In this document: in pieces, positions 16,636 to 32,707 of the stretch | Layout of the letters: the number at the start of each line of letters is the position of its first letter | How positions within the stretch are numbered: the first letter of the stretch is position 1 | Notes under the pieces: model-generated | Databases searched by the model: none | What the model saw: only the letters and a program-made list of their open reading frames with translations | Told to the model about the DNA's origin: nothing | Position numbers and translations under genes: made by a program | Assembly: GCA_001829185.1 (NCBI GenBank) | Contig: MIAR01000032.1 | Location: 1-64,000 of the forward strand | DNA from: Spirochaetes bacterium GWB1_60_80 | Lineage (GTDB): Bacteria > Spirochaetota > Spirochaetia > Treponematales > UBA12059 | DNA: 64,000 nt | Direction of reading: 5' to 3'

Positions 16636-17641
16636 CAACAAACTTCTCCTGTCCTCGACGCCACACGCCTACAGCGCCGGCTCGACGCGCAAGATCATGC
16701 TGGCTGTCATCATCGCCTTGTTGCCGGCCACTGGGTACGGCGTCTATCTGTTTGGTCTGCCCGCCCTGCTCGTAATTTTGACGTCGGTGGTAGCGGCCGT
16801 AGTAGCTGAGGCAGGCTTCCGCCTGGTAACCAAGCAGGATATCCGTATCGGCGACCTCTCGGCCGTGGTCACTGGCCTGCTGCTGGCCTTGATCTGTCCG
16901 CCGTCCATCCCTCTCTGGATGGTAGCCCTCGGTTCAGCCGCTGCCATCATCTTTGCCAAAGAATTCCTAGGCGGACTCGGCGCCAACCCCTTTAACCCGG
17001 CCTTGATTGGCCGCGGCATCCTGCTGATGAGCTTCCCAGCGGCCATGACCACCTGGCACCTACCGGTCCAGACCATCGGCGACGTAGTCACCGGTGCCAC
17101 TCCACTCAACATCGTCAAGATGGGCGGCAGCCTGGCCGACGTCGCCAATGACTTGGCCGCCAATGGTCTGGCCGCCGGTAACAGCTATAGCGACATGCTG
17201 TGGACCCTGTTCCTCGGCAACCGCGCCGGCTGCATTGGTGAAAGTTCCATCCTGCTCATCCTGGTCGGCCTGGCCTTCCTACTGCTGACCCGCGTGGTTA
17301 ATGTCATCGTACCCCTGGCCATGATGGGCTCCACCTTCCTGTTCTCTTGGTTGTTTGGCCTGGACCCGGTCTTCGGCATCTTGTCCGGCGGCGTGGTCTT
17401 TGGCGCGGTCTTCATGGCCACCGATTATTCGTCCAGCCCGCTGCCGCCATTCGGTAAACTTATTTTCGGCACTGGCGCCGGCTTCCTGACGGCCATCATA
17501 CGAAAGTTCGGCGGCTTCCCCGAGGGCGTCACCTATAGTATCCTGATCATGAACGCCATCGCGCCTTATCTCGACAAATTGCGCGTCAAAAAGTACGGCT
17601 TCATCAAACCGGCCAAGCCAGTCAAGGAGGCCGCCAAATGA
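16628..17641 (+). CDS. rnfD: Rnf complex subunit D
   Basis: An integral membrane subunit of 337 residues with about eight to ten helices that carries a covalent FMN. I start at GTG 16628, behind AAGGAGG, overlapping rnfC by 8 bp; the frame is open further upstream but only inside rnfC. The flavinylation motif is TGATPLN (TGAT in place of SGAT, common in RnfD), with Thr as the attachment site. The family segments LICPPSIPLWM and FNPALIGR are clear. It should form the ion path with RnfG, E and A. Confidence 0.95.
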   Translation: MPDNKLLLSSTPHAYSAGSTRKIMLAVIIALLPATGYGVYLFGLPALLVILTSVVAAVVAEAGFRLVTKQDIRIGDLSAVVTGLLLALICPPSIPLWMVALGSAAAIIFAKEFLGGLGANPFNPALIGRGILLMSFPAAMTTWHLPVQTIGDVVTGATPLNIVKMGGSLADVANDLAANGLAAGNSYSDMLWTLFLGNRAGCIGESSILLILVGLAFLLLTRVVNVIVPLAMMGSTFLFSWLFGLDPVFGILSGGVVFGAVFMATDYSSSPLPPFGKLIFGTGAGFLTAIIRKFGGFPEGVTYSILIMNAIAPYLDKLRVKKYGFIKPAKPVKEAAK

Positions 17642-18267
17642 AGAACAATATCCTCAAGCTCGGCATCGTCCTGGCCCTCTACGCCAGCCTGGCCTGTACC
17701 GCCCTGGCCGTGGTAGAGCAATTTACCGGGCCAATCATCGAAGGGCACCAGTCCCGCCAACTGCAAGAATCACAGCAAGACCTCTTCCCCGAGGCCGATG
17801 CCTTCACCGAAATTCCGCTCGAGTCGTTTTCCACCGACGTCCAAAAGGTTAACTTCACCGGTGCTTGGCAAGCGCGCAGTGGCAACCGCCTGCTTGGCGT
17901 CATCCTCAAGGTAGCCGGATCCAGCTACGGTGGCAAGGAAGCCATCGTCCTGGTCGGCATCGGTTCCAACCTCAAAATCGCCGGTACCCGCATCCTGACC
18001 TTGTCCGACACTCCCGGCCTGGGCGCAAATGCCGTGAAGGCCAACTACTACGTGAACAAACCGGAACAGATCACTTTCCCCGGCCAATTCACCGGCATGG
18101 CCGTGTCGAGTTCCTTCGACCTGACCACCCTGGCCAGCGATAACGAGAACACCGTCATTGCCATCACGGCCAGTACCATTACCAGCCGGGCGATCACTAC
18201 TATGGTCAAGGCCGCCGCCCAAGCCGGCACCACCTGGCTGGGTTCCAACTCCACTGGAGGCAACTAA
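17638..18267 (+). CDS. rnfG: Rnf complex subunit G (variant flavinylation motif)
   Basis: A 209-residue subunit with one N-terminal membrane helix and an extracytoplasmic FMN-binding domain. TPGLGANA is the family GLG segment. The covalent-FMN motif is normally S/T-GAT-x-T/S; here it reads TASTITS, so the acceptor Thr is kept but Gly and Ala are changed to Ala and Ser. The start ATG overlaps the rnfD stop (ATGA), indicating coupling. Whether the ApbE flavin transferase still recognises this site is uncertain. No apbE is seen in the window. Confidence 0.92.
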   Translation: MKNNILKLGIVLALYASLACTALAVVEQFTGPIIEGHQSRQLQESQQDLFPEADAFTEIPLESFSTDVQKVNFTGAWQARSGNRLLGVILKVAGSSYGGKEAIVLVGIGSNLKIAGTRILTLSDTPGLGANAVKANYYVNKPEQITFPGQFTGMAVSSSFDLTTLASDNENTVIAITASTITSRAITTMVKAAAQAGTTWLGSNSTGGN

Positions 18268-18899
18268 TGAAAAACCTGCTGAAAATTTTCAGCCGCGGCT
18301 TGATCATCGAGAATCCATTGCTGATGCTGATGATCGGCCTCTGCTCCGCGGTGGCCGTGACGACCAGCGTCGAGAACGCCATCGGTATGGGCGCCGCCAT
18401 GACCTTCGTCATTGTCCTGGCCGAGCTGGTCATCTCGCTGTTCCGCAAGCTTATCCCGAGCGACGCGCGCATCCCGATCTTCATCATCGTTATCGCGGCT
18501 TTTACCACCATGATCGATTTGGCCATGAAGGCCTACTTCCCGGCTTTGTCCCGCTCATTGGGCGTTTTCATCCCGCTCATCGTGGTCAACTGCATCATCA
18601 TGGGTCGCGTTGAAGCCTATGCCAGCAAGCAGCCACCGATCAATGCCGTCTTTGACGCGCTGGGTATGGGCGTCGGCTACACCTGGGTGCTGGTCGGCAT
18701 CGCCACCTTCCGTGAGCTGCTGGGCAATGGCACACTGCTCGACTTCCAGATCATGCCGGAAAGCTTCCAGCCCATCCTGTTCTTCACCCTCTCGCCCGGC
18801 GGCTTCATGGTATTCGCGCTGTTCATCGCCTTGAACCTCTGGCTCAAGAAGATCACCGGCCGCAAGGCTGGCAACACCATCGTGTCGGAGACCCTATGA
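18267..18899 (+). CDS. rnfE: Rnf complex subunit E
   Basis: A 210-residue, six-helix membrane subunit of the NqrD/RnfE family. Together with RnfA it forms the inverted-repeat pair that binds a [2Fe-2S] cluster in the membrane core. The hallmark VVNCIIMGRVEAYA and the Cys in GLCSAVAVT are present. GGAGG precedes the ATG; it overlaps the rnfG stop by one base. Confidence 0.95.
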   Translation: MKNLLKIFSRGLIIENPLLMLMIGLCSAVAVTTSVENAIGMGAAMTFVIVLAELVISLFRKLIPSDARIPIFIIVIAAFTTMIDLAMKAYFPALSRSLGVFIPLIVVNCIIMGRVEAYASKQPPINAVFDALGMGVGYTWVLVGIATFRELLGNGTLLDFQIMPESFQPILFFTLSPGGFMVFALFIALNLWLKKITGRKAGNTIVSETL

Positions 18900-19477
18900 A
18901 CCTCTTTTCCATCTTTCTGAGCGCCGCGCTAATCGACAATATCGTCCTGATGCAATTCCTAGCGCTTTGCCCCTTCATCGGCATGTCCAGCGATGCCGGC
19001 AAAAGCATCGGCATGGGCATGGCTGTCATGTTCGTCACGGTAATGGCCACCATCGTCACCTACCCGATCTTTCACTTCATCCTGGTACCGATGGAGCTCG
19101 AGTTCCTGCAGATCCTGGTTTTCATCCTGGTCATCGCCGCCTTAGTGCAGCTGGTCGAATTTTTTCTCAAAAAGAACGTTCCCGGCCTGTATGCTTCGAT
19201 GGGTATCTTCCTGCCCCTGATCACCACCAACTGCGCCATCCTAGCGGTTACCTTCAACAATATCTCCAAGGGATTCAACCTGATCGAGTCGGTGGTCTAT
19301 GCCGTCGGCGTGGCCTCGGGCTTCCTATTGGCGCTGCTGTTGCTGGCCGGACTGCGCAGCCGGATGAAAGCGGCACCCATCCCGGCCTTCCTGAAGGGCA
19401 CGCCAGCCTTGTTCGTCACCACCAGCTTGCTGGCCGTAGCCTTCATGGGCTTTTCCGGCCTGAGCTTCATCAAGTAA
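18896..19477 (+). CDS. rnfA: Rnf complex subunit A
   Basis: A 193-residue, six-helix subunit of the NqrE/RnfA family, topologically inverted relative to RnfE. It contains FLALCPFIG and LITTNCAIL, the two Cys segments that ligate the intramembrane Fe-S cluster. ATGA overlap with rnfE. Length is exactly that of the family. Confidence 0.95.
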   Translation: MNLFSIFLSAALIDNIVLMQFLALCPFIGMSSDAGKSIGMGMAVMFVTVMATIVTYPIFHFILVPMELEFLQILVFILVIAALVQLVEFFLKKNVPGLYASMGIFLPLITTNCAILAVTFNNISKGFNLIESVVYAVGVASGFLLALLLLAGLRSRMKAAPIPAFLKGTPALFVTTSLLAVAFMGFSGLSFIK

Positions 19478-19486
19478 GGAGCCTCT

Positions 19487-20362
19487 ATGATAATCCTGAT
19501 TACCTTTGGTTTCTCGGCGCTCCTAGCTTTGCTGCTTGGATTGGCGCTGGGATTCTTCAAGGAAAAGTTTAACGTTGAAAAGGACCCGCTAATGGCGGCC
19601 TGCGAGACAACCTTGCCCGGCATCAACTGCGGGGCCTGCGGTTATCCCGGCTGCGGCGGTTACGCCACCGCTCTTGCTTCCGGCGAAGCGCCAGTAACCA
19701 AATGTGCTCCCGGCGGCAAGGCAACGGCTGAGGCTCTCGCCAATCTGCTGGGTGTTTCGGCCAGCGCGGTCGATATAGTCGCCGTCTTGGCATGCCAGGG
19801 TCACAAGGACGCTGCCCAAGTAAAAGGCGACTATGTGGGCGTCAAGACCTGTCGCGCCGCCAAGCTCTCTGCCGGCGGTACAAAATTGTGCGCCTGGGGT
19901 TGCATGGGCTATGGCGATTGTGTAGCCGTGTGCCAGTTCGATGCCATAAAAATACAGGCCGACGGCCTGCCGCACGTTGATTATGCTAAATGCACGGGCT
20001 GCCGCTTCTGTATTCTGGAATGCCCCAGTCAGCTACTGCAGGCCATCCCGCGCGACCAGGTCGGCTCGATGGTCATTTGCAGCAACCGCTCGGTAGTCAA
20101 AGCCAATGTCATGAAACAGTGTAAGGTCGGCTGCATCAAATGCGGCATCTGCGTCAAATCCTGCCCGGAAGAATGCATTACCATGGTCAATGGTATCCCG
20201 GTTACCGATTTCGAAAAATGCACTTCCTGCGGCATTTGCGTGGAAAAGTGTCCGACCAAATGTTACAAACTGCTCCAAGGCATCACTGGCGCAACCGGAG
20301 AGTTAAGTCCTCGGCCACTGCTTAAGGAAGAGCCGGCCATCAAGATAGGCTGTTGCAATTAA
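19487..20362 (+). CDS. rnfB: Rnf complex subunit B (ferredoxin-binding polyferredoxin)
   Basis: The 291-residue electron-entry subunit. One N-terminal helix (about residues 1-24) is followed by the RnfB-specific cluster domain (CGACGYPGCGGYA...CAPGG) and then a Cys-rich polyferredoxin part with motifs CMGYGDC...C, CTGCRFCILEC, CIKCGICVKSC and CTSCGICVEKC. That is enough Cys for several [4Fe-4S] clusters, more than the minimal proteobacterial RnfB. AAGGAG stands upstream. It closes the operon, followed by a strong terminator. Confidence 0.95.
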   Translation: MIILITFGFSALLALLLGLALGFFKEKFNVEKDPLMAACETTLPGINCGACGYPGCGGYATALASGEAPVTKCAPGGKATAEALANLLGVSASAVDIVAVLACQGHKDAAQVKGDYVGVKTCRAAKLSAGGTKLCAWGCMGYGDCVAVCQFDAIKIQADGLPHVDYAKCTGCRFCILECPSQLLQAIPRDQVGSMVICSNRSVVKANVMKQCKVGCIKCGICVKSCPEECITMVNGIPVTDFEKCTSCGICVEKCPTKCYKLLQGITGATGELSPRPLLKEEPAIKIGCCN

Positions 20363-22394: not shown

Positions 22395-23330
22395 TTGATT
22401 AACCAATACGAATTCCGGCCAATCACCACCGCCGACAAACCGCGTATCCTTGAAATCTGCGCCAAAATTTGGGATGGCGGCGATTATCTGCCGGCGGCTT
22501 TTGACGCCTGGGTGGCTGACAAGAATGGCCAGTTCACAGCCTGCCTTCATGACGGTCAACTGATCGGTTGCGGAAAATTGGGTTTCGTCTCCCCAGGTCA
22601 TGCTTGGCTGGAAGGCTTGCGCAAGGACATCGACCTGCCGCTAAAAGGGGTCGGACGAGCCCTCTGCCTGTATAACTTGCGCCGATTGCAGACTCAGGCC
22701 GGGATAAAATCAATCCGCTTTGCAACATATATTATGGATCACGAGTCTATCAACCTGAACGAAAAAATCGGCTTCTGCCGGATAGCTAGCGCTACCGTCC
22801 GCAGCAAGATCGTGGACGCCATGCATCGTGACTATAATGCCACTTCGGCCTCGCCGTTGACGCCTGCCGAAACCGGAGGCTATATCACCCGACCGACAGC
22901 CGACTTGACTGAGCTTGCGAAAAACTTGCGGGCTGCTGGGTGGCTGCAGCAGTTTCTTTACGCATCATGGAAAGCTTATCCAGCCGAAGAGCCGGGCTTA
23001 CTGGATAAGTTCGCCACCGCTGGGGCTTGTTACGATTGCCTCGACAAACAAGGCCATAACGCCGGCGGGATTATATTCTGGATTGACCATACTAAGCGGC
23101 TGCTGACCATTATCGGCTTGGCAGCCCGCGACAGCCAAGCCGCGGCCACCTTGCTACTGCGGGCGGAGAAGGCCTGCCGGCAAGCCGGCTACGCTGAAAT
23201 CGAAGCCATGCTGCCGGCCAATCCTGCAGTTTTCCGCCAATTTGCCGATTGCCATTACCAAGGCTGGGAGCAGGACGACGATTTTCTGCTTTACGAATTC
23301 CCGCTTGATCGGCTGACCAATCTGGCCTGA
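22395..23330 (+). CDS. GNAT-family N-acetyltransferase (two-domain)
   Basis: A 311-residue protein. The N-terminal GNAT fold starts with YEFRPITTADKPRIL; LKGVGRALCLYNLRRLQ fits the acetyl-CoA pyrophosphate loop, followed by ESINLNEKIGF, the usual strand/helix 5 segment. The C-terminal ~130 residues look like a second, less conserved GNAT-like half (AATLLLRAEKACRQAGYAEIE). I choose TTG at 22395 because GGAGGA lies four bases upstream and homology begins at once; a GTG at 22350 has no such site. The acceptor substrate is unknown. Confidence 0.8.
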   Translation: MINQYEFRPITTADKPRILEICAKIWDGGDYLPAAFDAWVADKNGQFTACLHDGQLIGCGKLGFVSPGHAWLEGLRKDIDLPLKGVGRALCLYNLRRLQTQAGIKSIRFATYIMDHESINLNEKIGFCRIASATVRSKIVDAMHRDYNATSASPLTPAETGGYITRPTADLTELAKNLRAAGWLQQFLYASWKAYPAEEPGLLDKFATAGACYDCLDKQGHNAGGIIFWIDHTKRLLTIIGLAARDSQAAATLLLRAEKACRQAGYAEIEAMLPANPAVFRQFADCHYQGWEQDDDFLLYEFPLDRLTNLA

Positions 23331-23345
23331 CCACTCGCGCGCCCG

Positions 23346-23882
23346 TCAGCCGCTGGGTAGACGCGCTCGATAGTCGCCTAGTCTTCTGCGGCGGCCCCAC
23401 CAGGGGATGGTGCCAGAATAAATGCCAACACACCGTTTGGCCGTGATCAGTTCGTCGACATCGACCCCAAAAGGCAAGACTTGCCAAGGTGTCAAAATCC
23501 CTGCACTCAGCCCGGCGCAGAAAGCGACGTACAGCGGCAAGACAAATATCTGCCCAATCAACAGGCTGCTCAGGCTGATTGTATCGAAACCGCTGCCGCG
23601 AGCGGTGGCCTTCGGGTTGAACGGCAACTTCCAAGTACCCAGAAACACCGGCAGCCAGAGCATGGCGATGGTCAACGCCGCGGGAATCATACCGACAAGG
23701 AAAAAGCCAGGCCGGCAACCGTAGCGGCTGTGGACCTGGTCGGTAATAAAACCCATCAACGGGTCGGACTCCGAGTCCCACACCTTACCCAAGCCGGGTA
23801 TCAGAACAGCCAAGATCGGTGACAGGTCAACCGCCGCCGTATGAATCGCCAACGCCATAAGCCAAGACCGCTTTCTGCCCAA
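23346..23882 (-). pseudogene. Remnant of a GPH/MFS_2-type sugar:cation symporter
   Basis: About 178 residues survive of a family that is normally 450-500 long. Recognisable pieces are VWDSESDPLMGFITD with a following SRYGCRPGFFLVG (family: SRWGRRRPFFLIG), MIPAALTIAMLWLPV, and near the end DVDELITAKRCVGIYSG (family: DYDELKTGKRREGIYSG). The N-terminal helices, the middle part and the C-terminal half are missing, and the conserved Arg cluster is eroded. It lies just downstream of the cyclase gene on the same strand. Confidence 0.75.
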
Positions 23883-23899: not shown

Positions 23900-25345
23900 C
23901 TACTTGCTAGCTGGCCTGGTCGCTTGTTCGGAATATCCAGCACTCCAGCTTTTTACAGCATAATAAGTTATCGGCTCACTTTTCCCTTTAATAACCTGGT
24001 TCTCAATGGCCTTGGCCACCACCTTAGCCTGTACCTCAGCATAGAAACTGGCCGAAATCAGGATGGCGTTAGGCGGGGCCAGGCCACACAAGCGGCTGGC
24101 CAGATTGACCGTATCGCCGATAACGGCGTATTCTTGGCGGTTCTGGCTGCCGATGTTGCCGGCTACCACTTCGCCATAGTTGATGCCAATGCCGATGGCC
24201 ATCGGGTAATCCCAATTGCGACTCAACCGGTGAGTCTGGCGGACCATGTCGAAGGCGGCCTGCAGTGCCGACTCCGGTTCCTGGAACAAGGCCATAACGG
24301 CATCACCCATGAACTTGTCGATATCGCCATGATGTTGCTCGACAATACGCGCCTGGACATCAAGCACTTGGTTGAGCCGTTCAATGACCAGGCTGGCGTC
24401 TGCCTGGTCAGCGAAACGGGTAAAGCCGCGCACATCCGAAAACAGGACCGCCAGCCGGTTCTTCTGCCCGGCCTGACCGGTAGTCTGTTGCCGGATCATG
24501 GCATCGGTAGACCGCGATACATACTTGCTAAGCTGCAGCCGTTCCTGCACGCTGGTAAACATTTCGTTAATGCGGTTACCCAGCATCCCCAGCTCATCCT
24601 TGCTCCCGATCTGTACCTTGGCATCCAGCTGACCGGCGCCAAAATTGCTAACCATCCGGCCGATGTACAGCAATGGATTGAGTACCAAACGACGGATGGT
24701 CCAAATCAAGGCCAATGAGAACAAGACGACTGCAGCCGTCAGAAACGAAACCAACAACACGCTGGCCTTAGCGATCTGACGATAAATGCCGGCGATGGAT
24801 ACCTTGAAGTGGGCGATGCCGCGGATCGGGCCGGAAACCGCGACCGGACCATGGCAAAACTGGCAACTCTGTTCATTGCGGAGGGGAAAGAAATATTCCA
24901 TCTCCCGTTGCTCCGTCAACTCGCGGATAACGGGTCGGCCGGTGACGATGACCGACTGAAAGGCCGGATTATCCTGCATGCCCACGTCAACCCGCGGCGT
25001 CTGTTCGAAAATGACCCGCTCCTGGAAACTGTTCACGAATTCCAAGGTACGATAATCCTGGAAAGCACGACTGCTATCCGCGCGGTATAAATTGATTGCC
25101 TTGAACTCGCCGATCTGTTGCAGGCTTTGCATGGTGCCAACCGCCAACGGCGCCTCACCGCCCAACATCAAGTTCTTGATGACCATGTTGAGGATGTCGG
25201 TATTAACGCTTAGCGTACTCTTGGCCGCCTCCAGCAAGTCATTCTTCTGGCGCAACACCGTCAGGGGTATGACGGTTCCCATGACCACCAACATCAGCAG
25301 CACTATTACGACTATCACCTTAAATTGGAGGGAAAGGCCTTTCAT
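23900..25345 (-). CDS. Adenylate cyclase with an extracytoplasmic haem-c sensor domain
   Basis: A 481-residue membrane receptor cyclase. A helix at residues 8-28 is followed by an extracytoplasmic sensor of about 160 residues carrying CQFCH (Cys161, Cys164, His165), a c-type haem attachment motif, within a domain similar to Tll0287-like/haem-PAS sensors of Geobacter chemoreceptors. A second helix (about 195-217) and a HAMP domain lead to a class III catalytic domain: FSDVRGFT, DKFMGDAV and IGDTVNLASRL supply both metal Asps, the adenine-selecting Lys, and the catalytic Asn and Arg. It should make cAMP under control of a haem ligand or redox state. Its ATG overlaps the stop of the P460-like gene. 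Confidence 0.9.
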   Translation of the reverse strand: MKGLSLQFKVIVVIVLLMLVVMGTVIPLTVLRQKNDLLEAAKSTLSVNTDILNMVIKNLMLGGEAPLAVGTMQSLQQIGEFKAINLYRADSSRAFQDYRTLEFVNSFQERVIFEQTPRVDVGMQDNPAFQSVIVTGRPVIRELTEQREMEYFFPLRNEQSCQFCHGPVAVSGPIRGIAHFKVSIAGIYRQIAKASVLLVSFLTAAVVLFSLALIWTIRRLVLNPLLYIGRMVSNFGAGQLDAKVQIGSKDELGMLGNRINEMFTSVQERLQLSKYVSRSTDAMIRQQTTGQAGQKNRLAVLFSDVRGFTRFADQADASLVIERLNQVLDVQARIVEQHHGDIDKFMGDAVMALFQEPESALQAAFDMVRQTHRLSRNWDYPMAIGIGINYGEVVAGNIGSQNRQEYAVIGDTVNLASRLCGLAPPNAILISASFYAEVQAKVVAKAIENQVIKGKSEPITYYAVKSWSAGYSEQATRPASK

Positions 25346-25908
25346 TGATCGGCTCCTGCGGCGTCAAGCCTTTGTAAAAGCACAAAATCGGAGGCCGAAG
25401 AGCTATGGCACCTAATGCACATGGCTGGCCGACCTTCCATCTTGACTCCACCTTGATTGTCGTACGCTGCCCAAAACCAGTCACCGGCATCAGGGTTGTA
25501 TCCAGGCACTTTAGCCATCACCGTGTACCCAGAAACAACGCGGTCCGGGTCGTAGTTTTCCTTAATAATGATCGAGCCAGCCGGTGCGATATTGGCGCTA
25601 ATAGGCAGGGCATCGGCCAGTATAGGATTGATATAGATGCGGTGAAAACGACCATGAGGCGATTGCCCCGGCTGAATGCCCTTATAATCCGGCCAGGACG
25701 GGTAGGCCTTAAAATCTTCTTCTACGGTGATGCGCTGCCAAAGGCTAGCCCCGCTGATCTGGTCGCCCGTCAAGCCTGGCAAGGCCGCCACTGCCCTCGG
25801 GGTGCAGCTGACGATACTGCACAGACCGCATAAAACGACTCCCCAAAACCGATTGGCCAGTTTCAGTCTGCGACGTACAATAGCTTTCATGGCTTCACTA
25901 TGAACCAT
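25342..25908 (-). CDS. Cytochrome P460-like haem lipoprotein/secreted protein
   Basis: A 188-residue exported protein. The hydrophobic N-terminus ends in IVSC, a plausible lipobox. The mature part has the cytochrome P460 layout: WPDYKGIQPGQSPHGRFHRIYIN, then IIIKENYD, VMAKVPGYNP, DWFWAAYD, and a C-terminal CIRCH (Cys164, Cys167, His168). P460 proteins oxidise hydroxylamine or bind NO; many relatives of unknown role exist. ATG at 25908 follows GGGGGT; a second ATG at 25890 is possible. Four-base overlap with the cyclase suggests that it presents a ligand, haem or electrons to that sensor. Confidence 0.82.
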   Translation of the reverse strand: MVHSEAMKAIVRRRLKLANRFWGVVLCGLCSIVSCTPRAVAALPGLTGDQISGASLWQRITVEEDFKAYPSWPDYKGIQPGQSPHGRFHRIYINPILADALPISANIAPAGSIIIKENYDPDRVVSGYTVMAKVPGYNPDAGDWFWAAYDNQGGVKMEGRPAMCIRCHSSSASDFVLLQRLDAAGADQ

Positions 25909-25995
25909 GTCGACCCCCTTGTCAAACTTTTCCAGCAAGAAGAAATAATAGCGACGCAACTGGACAAGGACAAGGACCAGCATTATGATGCCGCC

Positions 25996-27237
25996 ATGAT
26001 TCAGTCCATCCTTATCTTCGCCCTCACCTATGTGCTCATTTCAGGCCGCCGGCTCAACCTCATCAAGATCGGCCGGCCGGCCGGCGTCATGCTGGGTGCG
26101 GTATTGATGGTGCTAGCCGGAGTGGTGCGGCCGGAACAGACGTACCGCCTGGTCAACTGGGACACCATCGTACTGTTATTAGGCATGATGATCATTACCG
26201 AACACCTGGCTGAGTCCGGCTTCTTCGATAAGACCGCCCAATGGCTGAACCGCCGTAACCACGCACCCAAGGCGCTGCTAGCCATCTTGGTGTTTGGCGC
26301 CGGCATTCTGTCGGCCTTCCTGGTCAACGATATCGTCTGCATCTTTTTTACGCCCTTGCTGGTGATCCTGCTGCGCGCCCGCAAACTGCCGGCCCTACCC
26401 TTCCTGCTGGCCCTGGCCTCGGCAGCCAACATCGGCGGCGTTATGACCCTGACCGGCAATCCGCAAAACATGATCATCGGCAACCTATCCGGCTTGTCGT
26501 ACCGTGAGTACTTTTTGTTGATGCTGCCGGTAGCGCTACTTTGCCTGGCCGTGAACTATCTACTGCTGCTGCTCATCTACCGGCGCGAGCTGTCGACGGC
26601 TGCCGCGCTACCAGCGCCTCCACCACCAGTCGTCACCCTGGAGCGCCAACCGCGGCTGCGCCGTTCCCTCCTGGTCACCGGCCTAGTCATTGTCGGCTTC
26701 TTCGCCTTCCATAACCTGCCCTGGACGGCCTTCGCCGGCGCGGCACTGCTCATGGTAATGTGCAACCGTGATGAGGCCAATCTTCTGCGGCGGATCGACT
26801 GGAACCTGCTGCTGTTTTTCGCTTGCCTGTTCGTGGTGACTGGCGCGTTGCGGGTATCCGGCGCCACGGCCTTGATTACCGACCACGCCGGCCGTTTCCT
26901 TGGCAACAGCCCGGCAGCACTCTGGCTGTTCGGCCTGGTCAACCTGGTTGCCTCCAACATCTTCGGCAACGTACCCTACGTCTTGATCATAGCCGAGTCC
27001 ATCCAGAAAATGGCCAATCCAAAACTGATGTGGTATTGCCTGGCCTTTTCCAGCACCGTGGCCGGCAACCTGACCTTGCTGGGCTCGGTGGCCAACGTCA
27101 TCGTCGCCGAAAAGGCGCGCGACGTCCATGAAATGGGCTTTTTCGATTTCCTGAAATTCGGCTTGCCGACCACTTTAGTGACCACGGCTATCGGCCTGGG
27201 CATCCTGAGCCTTTACCAAACGATCGGCTGGCTGTAA
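25996..27237 (+). CDS. ArsB/CitM-superfamily anion permease
   Basis: A 413-residue membrane protein with about 11-12 helices. The family hairpin motif is seen in ASAANIGGVMTLTGNPQNMIIG and again near the C-terminus (LLGSVANVIVAEKA), as in ArsB/NhaD/CitMHS (SLC13-like, Ion Transporter superfamily). It is a likely sodium- or proton-coupled anion or dicarboxylate carrier; the substrate cannot be told. Homology starts at MIQSILIF (ATG 25996); the frame is open upstream to 25900 but those residues are polar and overlap the divergent P460 promoter region. Confidence 0.85.
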   Translation: MIQSILIFALTYVLISGRRLNLIKIGRPAGVMLGAVLMVLAGVVRPEQTYRLVNWDTIVLLLGMMIITEHLAESGFFDKTAQWLNRRNHAPKALLAILVFGAGILSAFLVNDIVCIFFTPLLVILLRARKLPALPFLLALASAANIGGVMTLTGNPQNMIIGNLSGLSYREYFLLMLPVALLCLAVNYLLLLLIYRRELSTAAALPAPPPPVVTLERQPRLRRSLLVTGLVIVGFFAFHNLPWTAFAGAALLMVMCNRDEANLLRRIDWNLLLFFACLFVVTGALRVSGATALITDHAGRFLGNSPAALWLFGLVNLVASNIFGNVPYVLIIAESIQKMANPKLMWYCLAFSSTVAGNLTLLGSVANVIVAEKARDVHEMGFFDFLKFGLPTTLVTTAIGLGILSLYQTIGWL

Positions 27238-27735
27238 AAACGCCTAGAAGCGCCACCCCAACTGACCCACACTATGACCGGCCGCACCTGGCGCTTCCGC
27301 ATCGAGGCCGTCTCCCCCAACACCCGGTGGGACGACACCGCCATCCGCCATGACCGGCACAGCGCCCGCCAGTGTCCGGCAAACCCGCAAGACCGCCATC
27401 CCGGCTAACCACCCGCATCCCCATCCCCCCGCCACCACAACCCACCCCTCTCTACGAACCACGGCGCAAAACCGTCAAACCCCGCAACTGGCTTAACCAC
27501 GGAGACCGCACCCGCGCGGGTGGCACGACCAAACATGGCCAAGCGATAAGCTGGCCATGTTTGATAGTGCCAGGCCCCGCGTCTATAATCTCCATGATCA
27601 AGCCCGCGCCGTTGTCAAAGTTTTACCCCGCTTTTCGCACCACCCTTGCCCTTTTCCCGTTTCGACGCAATAATGGCCCCACCGAATGCCAATTCCCGGA
27701 GACACTGCCCGTCTTCCATAAGTAAGGATACCATC
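27238..27735. other. 498-bp non-coding gap rich in inverted repeats
   Basis: No supported gene. Inverted arms gaagcgcca (27247-27255) and tggcgcttc (27289-27297) and a perfect 11-bp hairpin at 27531-27562 (aaacatggcca/tggccatgttt, 10-nt loop) are present; neither is followed by a T-tract. The middle is C-rich. It probably carries the promoter and leader of the DUF4956 operon. Confidence 0.5.
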
Positions 27736-28413
27736 GTGAACTGGTTACAAACCACCATCCTCGTCTCTCCCGACCAACTGCTGCGTTTCGCGCTGGCCCT
27801 TTGTCTGGCGCTCGCCTTGGGCCTGGGCGTGGCGCTGGTCTACCGCTATACCCACCGCGGCCTCAACTACGAGAGTAGTTTTGTATCGACCCTGGCCTTG
27901 CTGGCACCTATCGTCTGCCTAGTTATGTTTTTCATCCAGGGTGACCTGGTGCTATCACTTGGCCTAGTCGGCTCACTGTCCATTATCCGCTTCCGCACGC
28001 CCATCAAAGACACCCGCGACATGGTCTACCTGTTCTGGTCCATTGTAGTCGGGTTGGGTTGCGGTACGATGTTCTGGCTCTACTCCATCCTGGCCAGCCT
28101 GTTCATCGCCGTGGCGCTGGTCATCTTCAATTTGGTCAAATATGGCCGCCAGGTCCACGCCGAGTACATCTTGATCATCGCCGGAGGCTTACCGGCCGAT
28201 TACGCCAGCATCGAGCAACTTATCAACCAGGCCGACGCCTTGGTTCAGCTGCGCAGCCACGAAATGGAAGGCCAAACCTGGGAACGCACTTACGAATTCC
28301 GTTTTAGCCGCCAACAGGAACAGGCCATTCATCACCTGGCTACCGTTTTGCAACAATTGCCGGGCATCCACAAGGTTTCGCTGTTGACGCCTCAGCTGAC
28401 CTTACCGATGTAA
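27736..28413 (+). CDS. DUF4956-family membrane protein
   Basis: A 225-residue protein with three to five helices in the first 150 residues (ALCLALALGLGVALVY, LALLAPIVCLVMFFI, IVVGLGCGTMFWLYSILASLFIAVALVIF) and a soluble alpha/beta C-terminal domain. The family signature SLGLVGSLSIIRFRTPIKDTRD is unmistakable. DUF4956 proteins are nearly always encoded beside VTC-domain polyphosphate polymerases and CotH, as here. GTG at 27736 was chosen (TAAGGA upstream). Its biochemical role is not known; it may couple the VTC enzyme to the membrane. Confidence 0.88.
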   Translation: MNWLQTTILVSPDQLLRFALALCLALALGLGVALVYRYTHRGLNYESSFVSTLALLAPIVCLVMFFIQGDLVLSLGLVGSLSIIRFRTPIKDTRDMVYLFWSIVVGLGCGTMFWLYSILASLFIAVALVIFNLVKYGRQVHAEYILIIAGGLPADYASIEQLINQADALVQLRSHEMEGQTWERTYEFRFSRQQEQAIHHLATVLQQLPGIHKVSLLTPQLTLPM

Positions 28414-28419
28414 ACCAGG

Positions 28420-29145
28420 ATGACTAGGCTGACCACGCGTTTCGAGCGCAAATATCTGCTGGATCAAGCCCAATACCATCAGGTGCGTAACGAATTGCGA
28501 TTGCAGATGACCAGCGATGGCTACACCCGCCAGGGCGGCGGCAACTACCTGGTGCGCAGCCTTTATTACGATACGCGCGACTACTCGGCCTTCCACGAAC
28601 GCAACGACGGCAACTTTGGCCGCATCAAGTTGCGCGTCCGTTCTTACAGTGAACAAGCGGAACCAGATCAACCTATCTCAGTGGAAATCAAGACCAAGAA
28701 AGGCAATGCCATGGAAAAGTTTGCCTGCTTGGTCGGCCTGAACGACTACCACAATTTCCAGACCTGCCGGCGCTGGGCTTGCCCCGACAACGAGGTGACC
28801 AACGAGTTCGAGCGCCTCTATCGGGTGCGCATGATGGTTCCGGTACTGTTGATACAATACCGGCGTGAAGGTTACCGCACCCGCGACGGCTCGCCGCTGC
28901 GCGTAACGCTGGACCAGAACATCAGCAGCGCCCGGGCGTCGCGCCTGTTCCCGGAAAACTTACTGCTCAAGCCGCATCGCCCTAAAAATGTCGTCCTGGA
29001 GATCAAGAGCACGGCCGCCTGCGAGCCGGAGTGGCTGCAACACCTGGTCCGCCGGCACGGCCTCAAAATGACGGCCAACAGCAAGTACGTCCAGGGCATC
29101 GAGATCATCCGGCCCAATATGGTGACACCCGGACCGGTGGCATGA
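28420..29145 (+). CDS. VTC-domain polyphosphate polymerase-like protein
   Basis: A 241-residue soluble protein with the VTC (CYTH/TTM-related tunnel) fold. Conserved charged strand motifs are RFERKYLLD, VRSLYYDT, GRIKLRVRSY, SVEIKTKKG and VVLEIKST, which line the tunnel that binds polyphosphate and metal. The yeast homologue makes polyphosphate from ATP. It lies 6 bp behind DUF4956 and 10 bp before the CotH gene. It has no membrane helix, so the DUF4956 partner probably tethers it. Confidence 0.87.
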   Translation: MTRLTTRFERKYLLDQAQYHQVRNELRLQMTSDGYTRQGGGNYLVRSLYYDTRDYSAFHERNDGNFGRIKLRVRSYSEQAEPDQPISVEIKTKKGNAMEKFACLVGLNDYHNFQTCRRWACPDNEVTNEFERLYRVRMMVPVLLIQYRREGYRTRDGSPLRVTLDQNISSARASRLFPENLLLKPHRPKNVVLEIKSTAACEPEWLQHLVRRHGLKMTANSKYVQGIEIIRPNMVTPGPVA

Positions 29146-29155
29146 GGTATTTGAA

Positions 29156-32100
29156 ATGAAGTACATGAAGCGCTTGCGCTGGCTAGGCATCGGCGCCGGC
29201 CTGCTCCTGGCCAGCCTATTGGCCTGCTATATCGTCCTCAGCGCCAACACCGCCACCATCAGCTTCGCGGACCCCGGCCTACAGGCCGCCGTGCTGGCGG
29301 CCACCGGCGGCGAGACTGGCCAAGTCCTGCGGCACAAGCTGGGACAGATAACCTGGCTGGACGCCAGCTACCACGATATCCGCGACTTGAACGGCATCGA
29401 GCGCCTGGCCAACCTGCGCGGTATCGACCTTTCAGGCAATCCGCTGCAATCACTCGCTGTCTTGGCCAACCTGGGCGGCCTTGAGGAACTGACGCTGCAA
29501 GACTGCGGCCTAACCGACCTGGCCGCGCTCGGCGCCGGCCAACTGGCCAGACTGCGCCGCCTGTTCCGTCTGGACCTGGCCAATAACCCGGACCTGGCCG
29601 GCCTGGCCGCCCTGACCAGTCTGCCGCAGCTGCGGTCGCTCAGCCTACGGGGCTCAAGCATCGACCAGCTCGACGCGGTCGGCCAGCTGGTCCACCTGAC
29701 GACCCTCGATTTGCGCGACTGCGACCTAGCCACGCTTGATCTGGAACCGCTTGGTCATTTAAGCGCCCTCGAGGAACTTGACCTGCGCGATACCGGCCTA
29801 GCTGACCTTACCTTCCTGACCAGGCTATCAAACCTGCGCACCGTCAACCTGCGCGGCAATCGCGCCATCACCGATTTCCAGCCCTTGGCCAGCCTAAGTG
29901 GGCTGCGCCGCCTGGACGCCAGCCACACCTTTATCGGCGCTCAGTTGGCGACCTTGGCCGGACTGCGCCACCTGGAGGATATCGACCTGCGCGCCACCGG
30001 GACCGTTGATCTGACAGTCCTGGCCAGTCTGATGTCACGTGGCGCTTTACAGGACAATCCGGCTGCCGGTCGCCGCGCCAGTTTGGACATCCGCGACAAT
30101 CCCGTCAACCTTGACCCACGCTTGGGACCAATTGGTTACGACGTCCTGGCGCCATACTGGAATGCCATTGGCAATCGCCAGCCGAAGCACCTGCCCCGCG
30201 TACCCAACAAGGAAATCATCATCAGCGAGGCGATGAGCGCCAACGATGGCGGCCTGACCGACGCCGACGGAAAGCATGCCGACTGGATCGAACTCTTTAA
30301 CCCCGGCCCAACGACTGTCCGGTTGGACGGTTTTTTTTTATCTGACGACCCGACCCAGCCCCTGCGCTGGCAGTTCCCGCCCGAAACCGAGCTGGCCGCA
30401 GACAGCCGCTTGATCGTCTTCGCTTCCGGCAAGCAACCCGGCCCAGCCGGCCAGCTCCACGCCGCCTTCCAGCTGGACGCTGCCGGCGAAAGCCTGGTAC
30501 TAACCCACCGTAATCGGCACAGCCTGGTAGACCGACTGGACCTGCCAGCCTTACCTCGCAACGTCAGCTATGGCGTCAAACCCGACGGACAGGCCACTAG
30601 TTTCCTGACCACCAGTTTCCTGGTGCCCACTCCCGGCGCCGACAACGCGACCGCTATCGAGTACGCCAATGTGGCCTTCTCACACCGCTCCGGTTTCTAC
30701 GATGCGGCCTTCGACCTAGAACTGGTCGCCAGTCAACCGGGCTGCGAAATTTACTATACTCTGGACGGTTCTGTACCCGATCCAGCCAACCTAGGCGGCC
30801 GCGATGCCTACCGCCTGCGTGACGCGGACAGCCTGGCCTTCAGCTGGCGACAGGTGCGTAGCTACCACTACAACGGTCCGATACACATTACACCCCGCCA
30901 CTTGGATACGCGCGACATTGCTGGAATTCCCACCGCCGTACCACTCGCTACCGAAGAAAACCTGGGCTGGGAGCCGCCGCAACCGGATATCCCGGCCGGC
31001 ATGGTGGTTCGCGCACTAGCCTGGGCCGGTCAAGCGCGCGGCCTGGTGAATAGTGCCTCGTATTTTATCATCACTGACCACTCGGAGAATTTCACATTGC
31101 CGGTTGTTTCAATTGTTACCGATCCTAGTGCCCTTTTCGATTACGATGTTGGACTCTATGTACCCGGGAAATCTTACTACGATAACCTGGATTGGGAAGA
31201 GATATGGCGCACGCAACCGGCTAATTACCATCTTAGGGACTTGGAAATTCCTGTCTGGCTCGATTTTTTTGAAGCCGACGGCCACCAGGTGCTGGGTTTG
31301 AATGCCGGCCTGCGCATGCATGGCGATTGGTCGCGAGCCCTGGTCATGAAATCATTACGTCTCTACGCACGCGACACCTACGACAGCCAGGATCGTTTCA
31401 ACTATGCGTTTTTCCCCAGTTCCCTGGCGGCAGACAACCTGTCACCGATCAATGACTACAAACGCTTACTGTTGCGTTCCAATCAAAGCGGCCAGCGGAC
31501 CTTTCTAGCCGATAGTTTCAGCAATACTTGGGTTGCCGATCATGTAGCTGTGGATCTGCTACACAATCGACCGGCTGCCCATTTCATCAATGGTGAGTAC
31601 TGGGGGTTACAGCATCTTAACGAGCGCTTCGATGAACACTGGCTGGCCAGTAAGTACGGGCTGCCACCAGAAGAATTCAGCTATTTATACGCCACCTTCG
31701 GCCTCGTCGCCCATCTGCGCCAGGGGCAACCCGAAGCGGAGGAACGCTACGCCGAATTGATGGCTTTCGTCAGAAACCAAGACCTGACTGATGCCGCTTC
31801 TTTCGACTACCTCGAAAAACAAATAGATTTGGACAGTTTAATCGACTACAACATGGTGCGAATTTTTTCCGGTGACATGGACGGCGTCAACAAGCATGTC
31901 ATCGTCTGGCGGCGTAATGGTCCCTTGCGCCCGGAGGCGGGGCCAGGTCTTGACGGCCGCTGGCGCTGGCACACCTGGGACTTCGATAATGCCCTGATTT
32001 TCCCTTTCAACGACACTATGACTTATTTTGCCAATGATCGTACTCTCGACGCTTATTCTGAACGGCCAATTACGTATGAACTGGATGCGGAATACCACTA

Positions 32101-32707
32101 TACCGCACCCTGGGTGCGCGACTCGGATTCTACGATCCTGCTGGCCGGTTTACTTCGCAACGAAGCCTTTCGGATTCGCTTTGTCAATCGTTTTGCCGAC
32201 TTTATGAATAGTTGGTATCGTGAGGATATTTTAACAGAAGGACTGGAAAACGCCATGGCGCAGATCCGGTTTGAACTGGGCAGGCATACCCGCCGCTGGG
32301 GCATACCCGTGTCATTAGATAGCAAATTCAACAGAAATCTGGATTTCGCCCGGCTACGTAGTGGTGTTCAGCGCGAACACCTGCGCGCCTACTTTGGCTA
32401 TCGCGGCCTGGACATTGGATCGATAGCACCCTTGGAGCTTGCTTTGCCGCTCGAAGGCGGCCTGGTGCGCGTGAACAGTTTATTGCTCAATGAAGCAGTC
32501 CTCGGCGTCTCGCCTGGAACCGTCTGGCGTGGATTATACTTCGGTAACCTGCCGGTGGAACTAGAAGCCATCCCAGCCCACGGCTGGTACTTCGCAGGCT
32601 GGGAAGGATTACCATCAGGACAGGATGCCAGCCAGGCCCTGCTTTCGGTTCTGCCCGCTGATTCGCCGAAACTTGAACCGGTCTTCGTGAGATTAGCTGG
32701 CCATTGA
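29156..32707 (+). CDS. Large surface CotH protein with LRR, lamin-tail and chitobiase-C-like domains
   Basis: A 1183-residue exported protein. A signal/anchor helix (about residues 10-30) leads to leucine-rich repeats (roughly 65-300, LRxxxLRxN type). A lamin-tail domain follows at about 350-470 (SEAMSAN...DWIELFNPG), then a chitobiase C-terminal-like beta domain (IYYTLDGSVPD), then a CotH kinase-like domain at about 640-1060 (VSIVTDPSALFD, LRMHGDWSR, NGEYWGLQHLNERFDE, WDFDNAL). It ends in an all-beta module (HGWYFAGWEG). CotH of Bacillus is a protein kinase of spore-coat proteins. The domain mix here suggests a cell-surface or secreted modifying protein working with the DUF4956/VTC pair. Confidence 0.88.
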   Translation: MKYMKRLRWLGIGAGLLLASLLACYIVLSANTATISFADPGLQAAVLAATGGETGQVLRHKLGQITWLDASYHDIRDLNGIERLANLRGIDLSGNPLQSLAVLANLGGLEELTLQDCGLTDLAALGAGQLARLRRLFRLDLANNPDLAGLAALTSLPQLRSLSLRGSSIDQLDAVGQLVHLTTLDLRDCDLATLDLEPLGHLSALEELDLRDTGLADLTFLTRLSNLRTVNLRGNRAITDFQPLASLSGLRRLDASHTFIGAQLATLAGLRHLEDIDLRATGTVDLTVLASLMSRGALQDNPAAGRRASLDIRDNPVNLDPRLGPIGYDVLAPYWNAIGNRQPKHLPRVPNKEIIISEAMSANDGGLTDADGKHADWIELFNPGPTTVRLDGFFLSDDPTQPLRWQFPPETELAADSRLIVFASGKQPGPAGQLHAAFQLDAAGESLVLTHRNRHSLVDRLDLPALPRNVSYGVKPDGQATSFLTTSFLVPTPGADNATAIEYANVAFSHRSGFYDAAFDLELVASQPGCEIYYTLDGSVPDPANLGGRDAYRLRDADSLAFSWRQVRSYHYNGPIHITPRHLDTRDIAGIPTAVPLATEENLGWEPPQPDIPAGMVVRALAWAGQARGLVNSASYFIITDHSENFTLPVVSIVTDPSALFDYDVGLYVPGKSYYDNLDWEEIWRTQPANYHLRDLEIPVWLDFFEADGHQVLGLNAGLRMHGDWSRALVMKSLRLYARDTYDSQDRFNYAFFPSSLAADNLSPINDYKRLLLRSNQSGQRTFLADSFSNTWVADHVAVDLLHNRPAAHFINGEYWGLQHLNERFDEHWLASKYGLPPEEFSYLYATFGLVAHLRQGQPEAEERYAELMAFVRNQDLTDAASFDYLEKQIDLDSLIDYNMVRIFSGDMDGVNKHVIVWRRNGPLRPEAGPGLDGRWRWHTWDFDNALIFPFNDTMTYFANDRTLDAYSERPITYELDAEYHYTAPWVRDSDSTILLAGLLRNEAFRIRFVNRFADFMNSWYREDILTEGLENAMAQIRFELGRHTRRWGIPVSLDSKFNRNLDFARLRSGVQREHLRAYFGYRGLDIGSIAPLELALPLEGGLVRVNSLLLNEAVLGVSPGTVWRGLYFGNLPVELEAIPAHGWYFAGWEGLPSGQDASQALLSVLPADSPKLEPVFVRLAGH

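Follow-up and report, generated by a model that had tools for sequence, protein, structure and literature searches.

The window, a 64,000 nt stretch of the Spirochaetes bacterium GWB1_60_80 genome (assembly GCA_001829185.1, contig MIAR01000032.1, positions 1–64,000), contains two overlapping genes on the reverse strand, one for a predicted lipid-anchored haem protein of the cytochrome P460 family and one for a predicted membrane receptor with a cyclase output (Table 1). The P460-like open reading frame has an alternative start at position 25908, six codons upstream of the start at 25890 that is used in the table. It matches the Pfam Cytochrome_P460 model (PF16694) with an E-value = 1.1e-9 (39.1 bits, cut-off 27) and carries the C-terminal CxxCH of the superfamily; a profile of 12 P460 sequences also matches solved P460 and cytochrome c′-beta structures. 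The receptor shows hydrophobic peaks at about residues 1–33 and 190–223 with the CQFCH motif situated in between, and thus the haem site of the sensor is predicted to lie outside the cytoplasm. A sequence-only reading of this DNA had described overlapping genes for a P460-like lipoprotein with CIRCH at positions 164–168, a numbering that runs from the 25908 start, and for a receptor cyclase with an extracytoplasmic CQFCH at 161–165 and an intact catalytic site. The Pfam match and the lipobox bear out the first description, and hydropathy, motifs and Pfam bear out the second.

Table 1. Features of the P460/receptor cyclase locus (coordinates of the window; residue numbers of the P460 protein from the 25890 start)
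Feature	Position	Strand	Basis
P460-family haem-c lipoprotein gene	25342..25890	-	182 aa; Pfam PF16694; solved P460/c′-beta structures match
Lipobox SIVS/C29 (SIVS before Cys29), predicted lipid anchor	25804..25818	-	sequence; Cys29 invariant in 12/12 aligned P460s
Lys110, haem-crosslink lysine column	25561..25563	-	aligns with McP460 Lys78; Lys in 27/28 receptor-linked P460s
Thr123, catalytic distal carboxylate column (McP460 Asp102)	25522..25524	-	alignment
CIRCH haem-c site of P460, residues 158–162 (164–168 from the longer start)	25405..25419	-	sequence
ATGA shared by the P460 stop and the cyclase start, 4 bp	25342..25345	-	sequence
Receptor adenylate cyclase gene	23900..25345	-	481 aa; TM - haem-Cache sensor - TM - HAMP - class III cyclase
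Extracytoplasmic haem-Cache sensor, residues ~33–190	24776..25249	-	profile best matches 3b47, 3b42
Met60, predicted distal haem ligand	25166..25168	-	alignment to GSU0935 Met60; Met in 32/32 sensors
CQFCH haem-c site, residues 161–165	24851..24865	-	sequence; C, C, H invariant in 32/32
HAMP domain, residues 217–267	24545..24697	-	PF00672, 3.3e-9
Class III adenylate cyclase catalytic domain, residues 293–462	23960..24469	-	PF00211 (Guanylate_cyc), 3.5e-22; CyaB alignment; motifs

The P460 gene and a CitMHS/ArsB-type transporter gene are divergent and separated by a short gap (positions 25897–25996), which displays promoter-like sites in either orientation: TTGACA-17-CATAGT on the minus strand and TGGACA-17-TATGAT on the plus strand. 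CRP-like sites in the window show no excess over chance. Downstream of the cyclase, positions 23110–23882 of the minus strand hold what is left of a gene for a GPH-type MFS sugar transporter, probably broken; the MFS_2 match covers positions 29–92 only, and the rest seems to run on in another frame. Further away are Rnf-complex-like genes (17638–20362; the FMN-binding subunit is confirmed by Pfam, the others were assigned by eye) and a run of DUF4956-like, VTC-like and CotH-like genes (27646–32707, by eye).

The catalytic domain of the receptor contains all the expected motifs, FSDVRGF302, DIDKFMGD341, GDTVNLASR410 and VIKGK451, and thereby the metal, base-selecting and transition-state motifs of class III. 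The closest solved structure is CyaB (3r5g, E-value = 1.2e-24), which, as other class III receptor adenylate cyclases, has the catalytic domain and motifs in common with the window protein. The receptor is thus probably a class III adenylate cyclase that makes cAMP. It differs from these cyclases at the input side, where it carries a predicted covalent haem-c domain and has a P460 partner. The genome displays many cNMP-binding domains (23 matches). A search of genome contigs returned relatives of the catalytic domain alone. Among plasmid sequences there are zero matches for the sensor plus HAMP region, and likewise for a P460 partner; a full-length relative used as query gave partial cyclase matches, which among the ten listed cover at most 69% of the query.

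A profile of 12 homologous sensor domains, searched against 177,635 PDB sequences, has as its top two matches the Geobacter sensors GSU0582 (3b47, E-value = 6e-4) and GSU0935 (3b42, E-value = 3e-3). The same profile matches the Pfam Tll0287-like and Mcp40H-20_sensor models, both below their cut-offs. The column of GSU0935 Met60 was fixed in the alignment by counting back from haem His144, and the window sensor aligns a methionine there. CxxCH and the distal Met60 are therefore common to the window sensor and the two Geobacter proteins, but the Geobacter output is a chemoreceptor and the output here a cyclase. In GSU0582 and GSU0935, Met60 is a ligand of the haem in its reduced form, and NO and CO displace it; the two were proposed as redox sensors, with potentials of −156 and −251 mV (PMC8396549). 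The larger family (DUF3365/Tll0287, PF11845) was named sCache_heme in a preprint by Deshpande et al. 2026 (PMC12889525). In this family a periplasmic Cache domain that carries CxxCH is flanked by two membrane helices, and HAMP and a signalling output come after it; the window receptor is predicted to be arranged in this way too. A signalling member that was tested bound NO, released it slowly and formed no stable O2 complex, and the listed fusions already include Guanylate_cyc (PMC12889525). However, the window domain scores 16.0 bits against PF11845, below the cut-off of 24.1, and the main text of the preprint does not mention a P460 partner (PMC12889525). Judged from these sequence features, the window sensor probably belongs to the already known haem-c Cache (sCache_heme) type.

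Two alignment columns, set by published residue numbers, describe the P460 pocket: McP460 Lys78 marks the cross-link lysine, and McP460 Asp102/TtCP-beta Gly82 the distal carboxylate. The window protein shares with the cytochromes P460 (NeP460, McP460, NsP460) the fold family, the CxxCH near the C-terminus and, from the alignment, the lysine that defines P460 sensu stricto. It differs from them in being a lipoprotein encoded with a receptor and in having Thr where the hydroxylamine-oxidising members have a carboxylate (Glu96 in NeP460, Asp102 in McP460). The cytochromes c′-beta (McCP-beta, TtCP-beta 7ead) are of the same fold family but carry Phe or Met at the lysine column; gas binding has been proposed as a feature of c′-beta. 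Lys110 rules against the window protein being a cytochrome c′-beta, and Thr123, in place of the carboxylate needed for the activity, rules against a hydroxylamine oxidase. The 28 receptor-linked P460s as a set show Glu in none and Asp in four at the carboxylate column, the other 24 having no carboxylate. By alignment the linked proteins thus have a "halfway house" pocket, in which the cross-link lysine is kept and the Glu of the hydroxylamine oxidases is absent. The functions of such proteins of the P460 superfamily are described as unresolved (PMC11928373). The pocket nearest to that of the window protein is that of NsP460 (Lys plus Ala), which is cross-linked, is without the carboxylate and, while it binds NO, has no NH2OH oxidation activity (PMC11928373).

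These residues bear on whether the P460 protein could serve as an enzyme producing or converting the ligand read by the haem-Cache receptor, e.g. hydroxylamine to NO. The family is shared with NH2OH-oxidising P460s, the cross-link lysine is retained, and the four linked proteins with Asp resemble McP460 in this respect (PMC11928373). However, the Thr of the window protein, the missing carboxylate in most of the set and the loss of activity that accompanies carboxylate loss in NsP460 (PMC11928373) make an enzymatic role improbable.

Members of the P460 family in the same phylum that have no such receptor as neighbour mostly display other pockets: nine belong to the c′-beta type (Phe/Ala or Phe/Gly), three to the oxidase type (Lys/Glu), one has Ile/Ala and four pair Lys with Thr or Phe, the last including G011, which starts at a contig edge so that its neighbour is not visible. 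Two variants are found. In G084 (L130 3731–4282), alone among the linked P460s, the cross-link column holds Glu and not Lys; its carboxylate column holds Asp. The P460 at a contig edge in G416:C141 (L175 ~1–510) has CFTCR in place of CxxCH, which is either an error at the assembly edge or a form lacking the haem His.

The pair was surveyed within Spirochaetota, a phylum assigned to these genomes by kinship and by the make-up of near relatives, in 393 genomes of the phylum, 394 genomes of the order and the first relatives found. There are 32 haem-Cache cyclases in this sample, and 29 of them have an adjacent P460 gene on the same strand. No neighbouring P460 is found in G165 and G228, while the locus of G440 ends at a contig edge and is scored neither with nor without P460; in G009 the locus is split over contigs, the cyclase contig ending within the P460 gene. 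Both haem-Cache sensors with a PAS/CheA-type kinase output also adjoin a P460 gene (G003:C441 and G466:C124, the latter without interruption), and none of the three haem-Cache chemoreceptors does (one, in G121, is cut downstream). Most of the junctions between P460 and receptor genes overlap or lie within ~25 bp. Since members of these same loci went into the local P460 and sensor profiles, the independent count is that of the Pfam model by itself, which places a P460 gene next to 20 of 23 cyclases in the phylum sample. The invariant CxxCH of the 32 sensors, together with a neighbouring P460 found independently by Pfam in relatives, argues that the pair is not due to chance. The sequence-only reading would have failed on loss of CxxCH in the cyclase relatives, on lack of conserved neighbourhood or on a genome devoid of cytochrome c maturation genes; the motif and the neighbourhood are both conserved, as above, and a CcsA-ResB haem-c assembly pair is present in the window genome, elsewhere than the locus.

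G466 carries one kinase pair plus one cyclase pair. Its G466:C124 locus (L177 5148–7921) joins a haem-Cache sensor to HAMP, PAS-like, Hpt-like and CheA-type kinase regions, and a clade A P460 comes next.

In the P460 tree the linked proteins form two supported clades (100/98 and 97/96), the second of which also holds G011. The sensors of these two P460 clades fall on opposite sides of a split with 100/100 support in the sensor tree; there, clade A also takes in the chemoreceptor sensors, and clade B the two cyclases without P460. Support for the branching order inside each clade is weak. The window pair is of clade A, where the P460 gene comes before the cyclase gene but after the kinase gene; in clade B it comes after the cyclase gene. 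Adjacency with cyclases and kinases alike, and the same two clades of pairs in both trees, mean that P460 goes with the sensor domain and not with the cyclase as such. Its absence beside the chemoreceptors and in G165 and G228 indicates that not every such sensor requires it.

The adjacency has thus survived changes of both gene order and output domain, which argues for a joint function at the input side over passive linkage. The two genes could share a locus merely because both products need haem-c assembly: both proteins carry CxxCH, and assembly genes are near in several genomes. This is highly improbable, however, for the linkage persists through swapped order, output change and strong divergence in several families of the phylum while the other flanking genes vary.

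The pair is likely to be one functional input-output module. The protein families, the residues, the conserved adjacency, the same two clades in both trees and the co-location with assembly genes are seen in the sequences; haem loading, physical contact of the two proteins, the NO or redox signal and the direction of the change in cAMP we infer. That the module is a periplasmic NO/redox input with two haems which sets cAMP is the reading we lean towards. The Cache domain of the receptor would hold a haem c through His165, with Met60 as a further ligand in the reduced state. Met60 would be displaced when NO binds or the iron is oxidised, and the membrane helices and HAMP would relay this to the cyclase and so alter cAMP. 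The lipoprotein of the P460 fold, which is predicted to share the sensor's side of the membrane, would act on the input, as a haem co-receptor or as an NO/redox-handling partner and not as a hydroxylamine oxidase; lipid-anchored as it is, it may bind or deliver the ligand, or set the state of the sensor. A bolder version, which we put forward tentatively, is that the P460-fold proteins are dedicated haem co-receptors that dock on haem-Cache receptors, two covalent haems gating cAMP or kinase output in spirochaetes. The lysine-cross-linked P460 haem would then bind NO, or cross-linking driven by an oxidant could leave a lasting record.

The P460 protein might instead be an effector that terminates the signal, an NO-binding or NO-consuming scavenger beside an NO sensor and without receptor contact. 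NsP460, which lacks the carboxylate as most linked P460s do, binds NO without oxidising NH2OH, c′-beta relatives with hydrophobic pockets are proposed gas binders (PMC11928373), and a scavenger sharing the transcription unit of a sensor is a usual arrangement. Against this, P460 is tied to this receptor subfamily and splits into the same two clades, a pattern not needed for a free scavenger, and the c′-beta-type members of the phylum are not beside such receptors. A scavenger is thus an unlikely explanation.

As to the signal read by the proposed two-haem input module, NO or NO-linked redox has about an even chance of being the natural one. The sequence-only reading had proposed an extracytoplasmic sensor of NO, oxygen or redox state that sets cAMP; NO and redox fit the chemistry of the family (PMC12889525, PMC8396549), but oxygen is the least likely signal since tested family members form no stable oxy complex (PMC12889525). 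P460 could also be a redox relay, holding the sensor haem in the reduced or the oxidised state, in which case the module would read redox potential and not a gas. The redox role proposed for the two Geobacter sensors with the potentials given above (PMC8396549), the low haem potentials of P460s (PMC11928373) and the multihaem cytochrome gene that immediately precedes the pair in G147 are in line with a relay. However, the genes beside the pair include no conserved electron donor or acceptor, and electron carriage is not a known role of the P460 fold; we consider a relay improbable.

CcsA, with or without ResB, adjoins the pair in four genomes (G001, G295, G064 and G187). It was not found in G019 and G056, two order genomes with the pair, both of which are fragmented assemblies. 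Cytochrome bd genes are found upstream of the pair in G077 (confirmed by Pfam), with homologues in G147 and G242. The window genome contains Hcp; searches of it showed neither NrfA nor a cytochrome bd gene, and no NO source was found there. A nitrite-ammonifying context is unsupported given the lack of NrfA, as is an oxygen-respiration context given the lack of cytochrome bd, the one oxidase searched for. With Hcp present and NrfA and cytochrome bd absent, an external origin is probable for NO, provided that NO is the signal. In several genera, transporter genes of the sulphate permease family (SulP-like) follow P460 (G003, G009, G011, G014 and G017), the assignment being by Pfam in G014 (L132 4508–6289) and by eye in the other four.

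P460-type proteins have so far been known as nitrification enzymes. Almost every relative of the receptor is encoded beside a P460-fold haem protein, which suggests that P460-type proteins also act as sensor parts. In the literature covered, which did not extend to subscription papers, no paper joins cytochrome P460 with an adenylate cyclase or P460 with Tll0287. The receptor type is already known and the P460 partnership appears to be new; for the cyclase half there is a precedent, Guanylate_cyc being among the published fusions (PMC12889525). The linked proteins make up a large P460 set in which the cross-link lysine is kept, the usual catalytic carboxylate is mostly missing and a genetic tie exists to an identified receptor, and this tie makes a signalling role for "halfway house" P460s directly testable. 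The newly described haem-Cache NO sensors in turn gain a partner protein. As predicted from its domains and residues, a spirochaete membrane receptor probably reads NO or redox state via a covalent haem and makes cAMP, and the pair suggests a way in which spirochaetes could translate NO or redox state outside the cell into cAMP.

In G019:C10 (L006 1498–3420) a P460 and a cyclase are neighbours in another, unlike setting: a P460-family gene with a Lys/Phe pocket directly follows a soluble cyclase that displays DUF2769 and 2Fe-2S ferredoxin domains.
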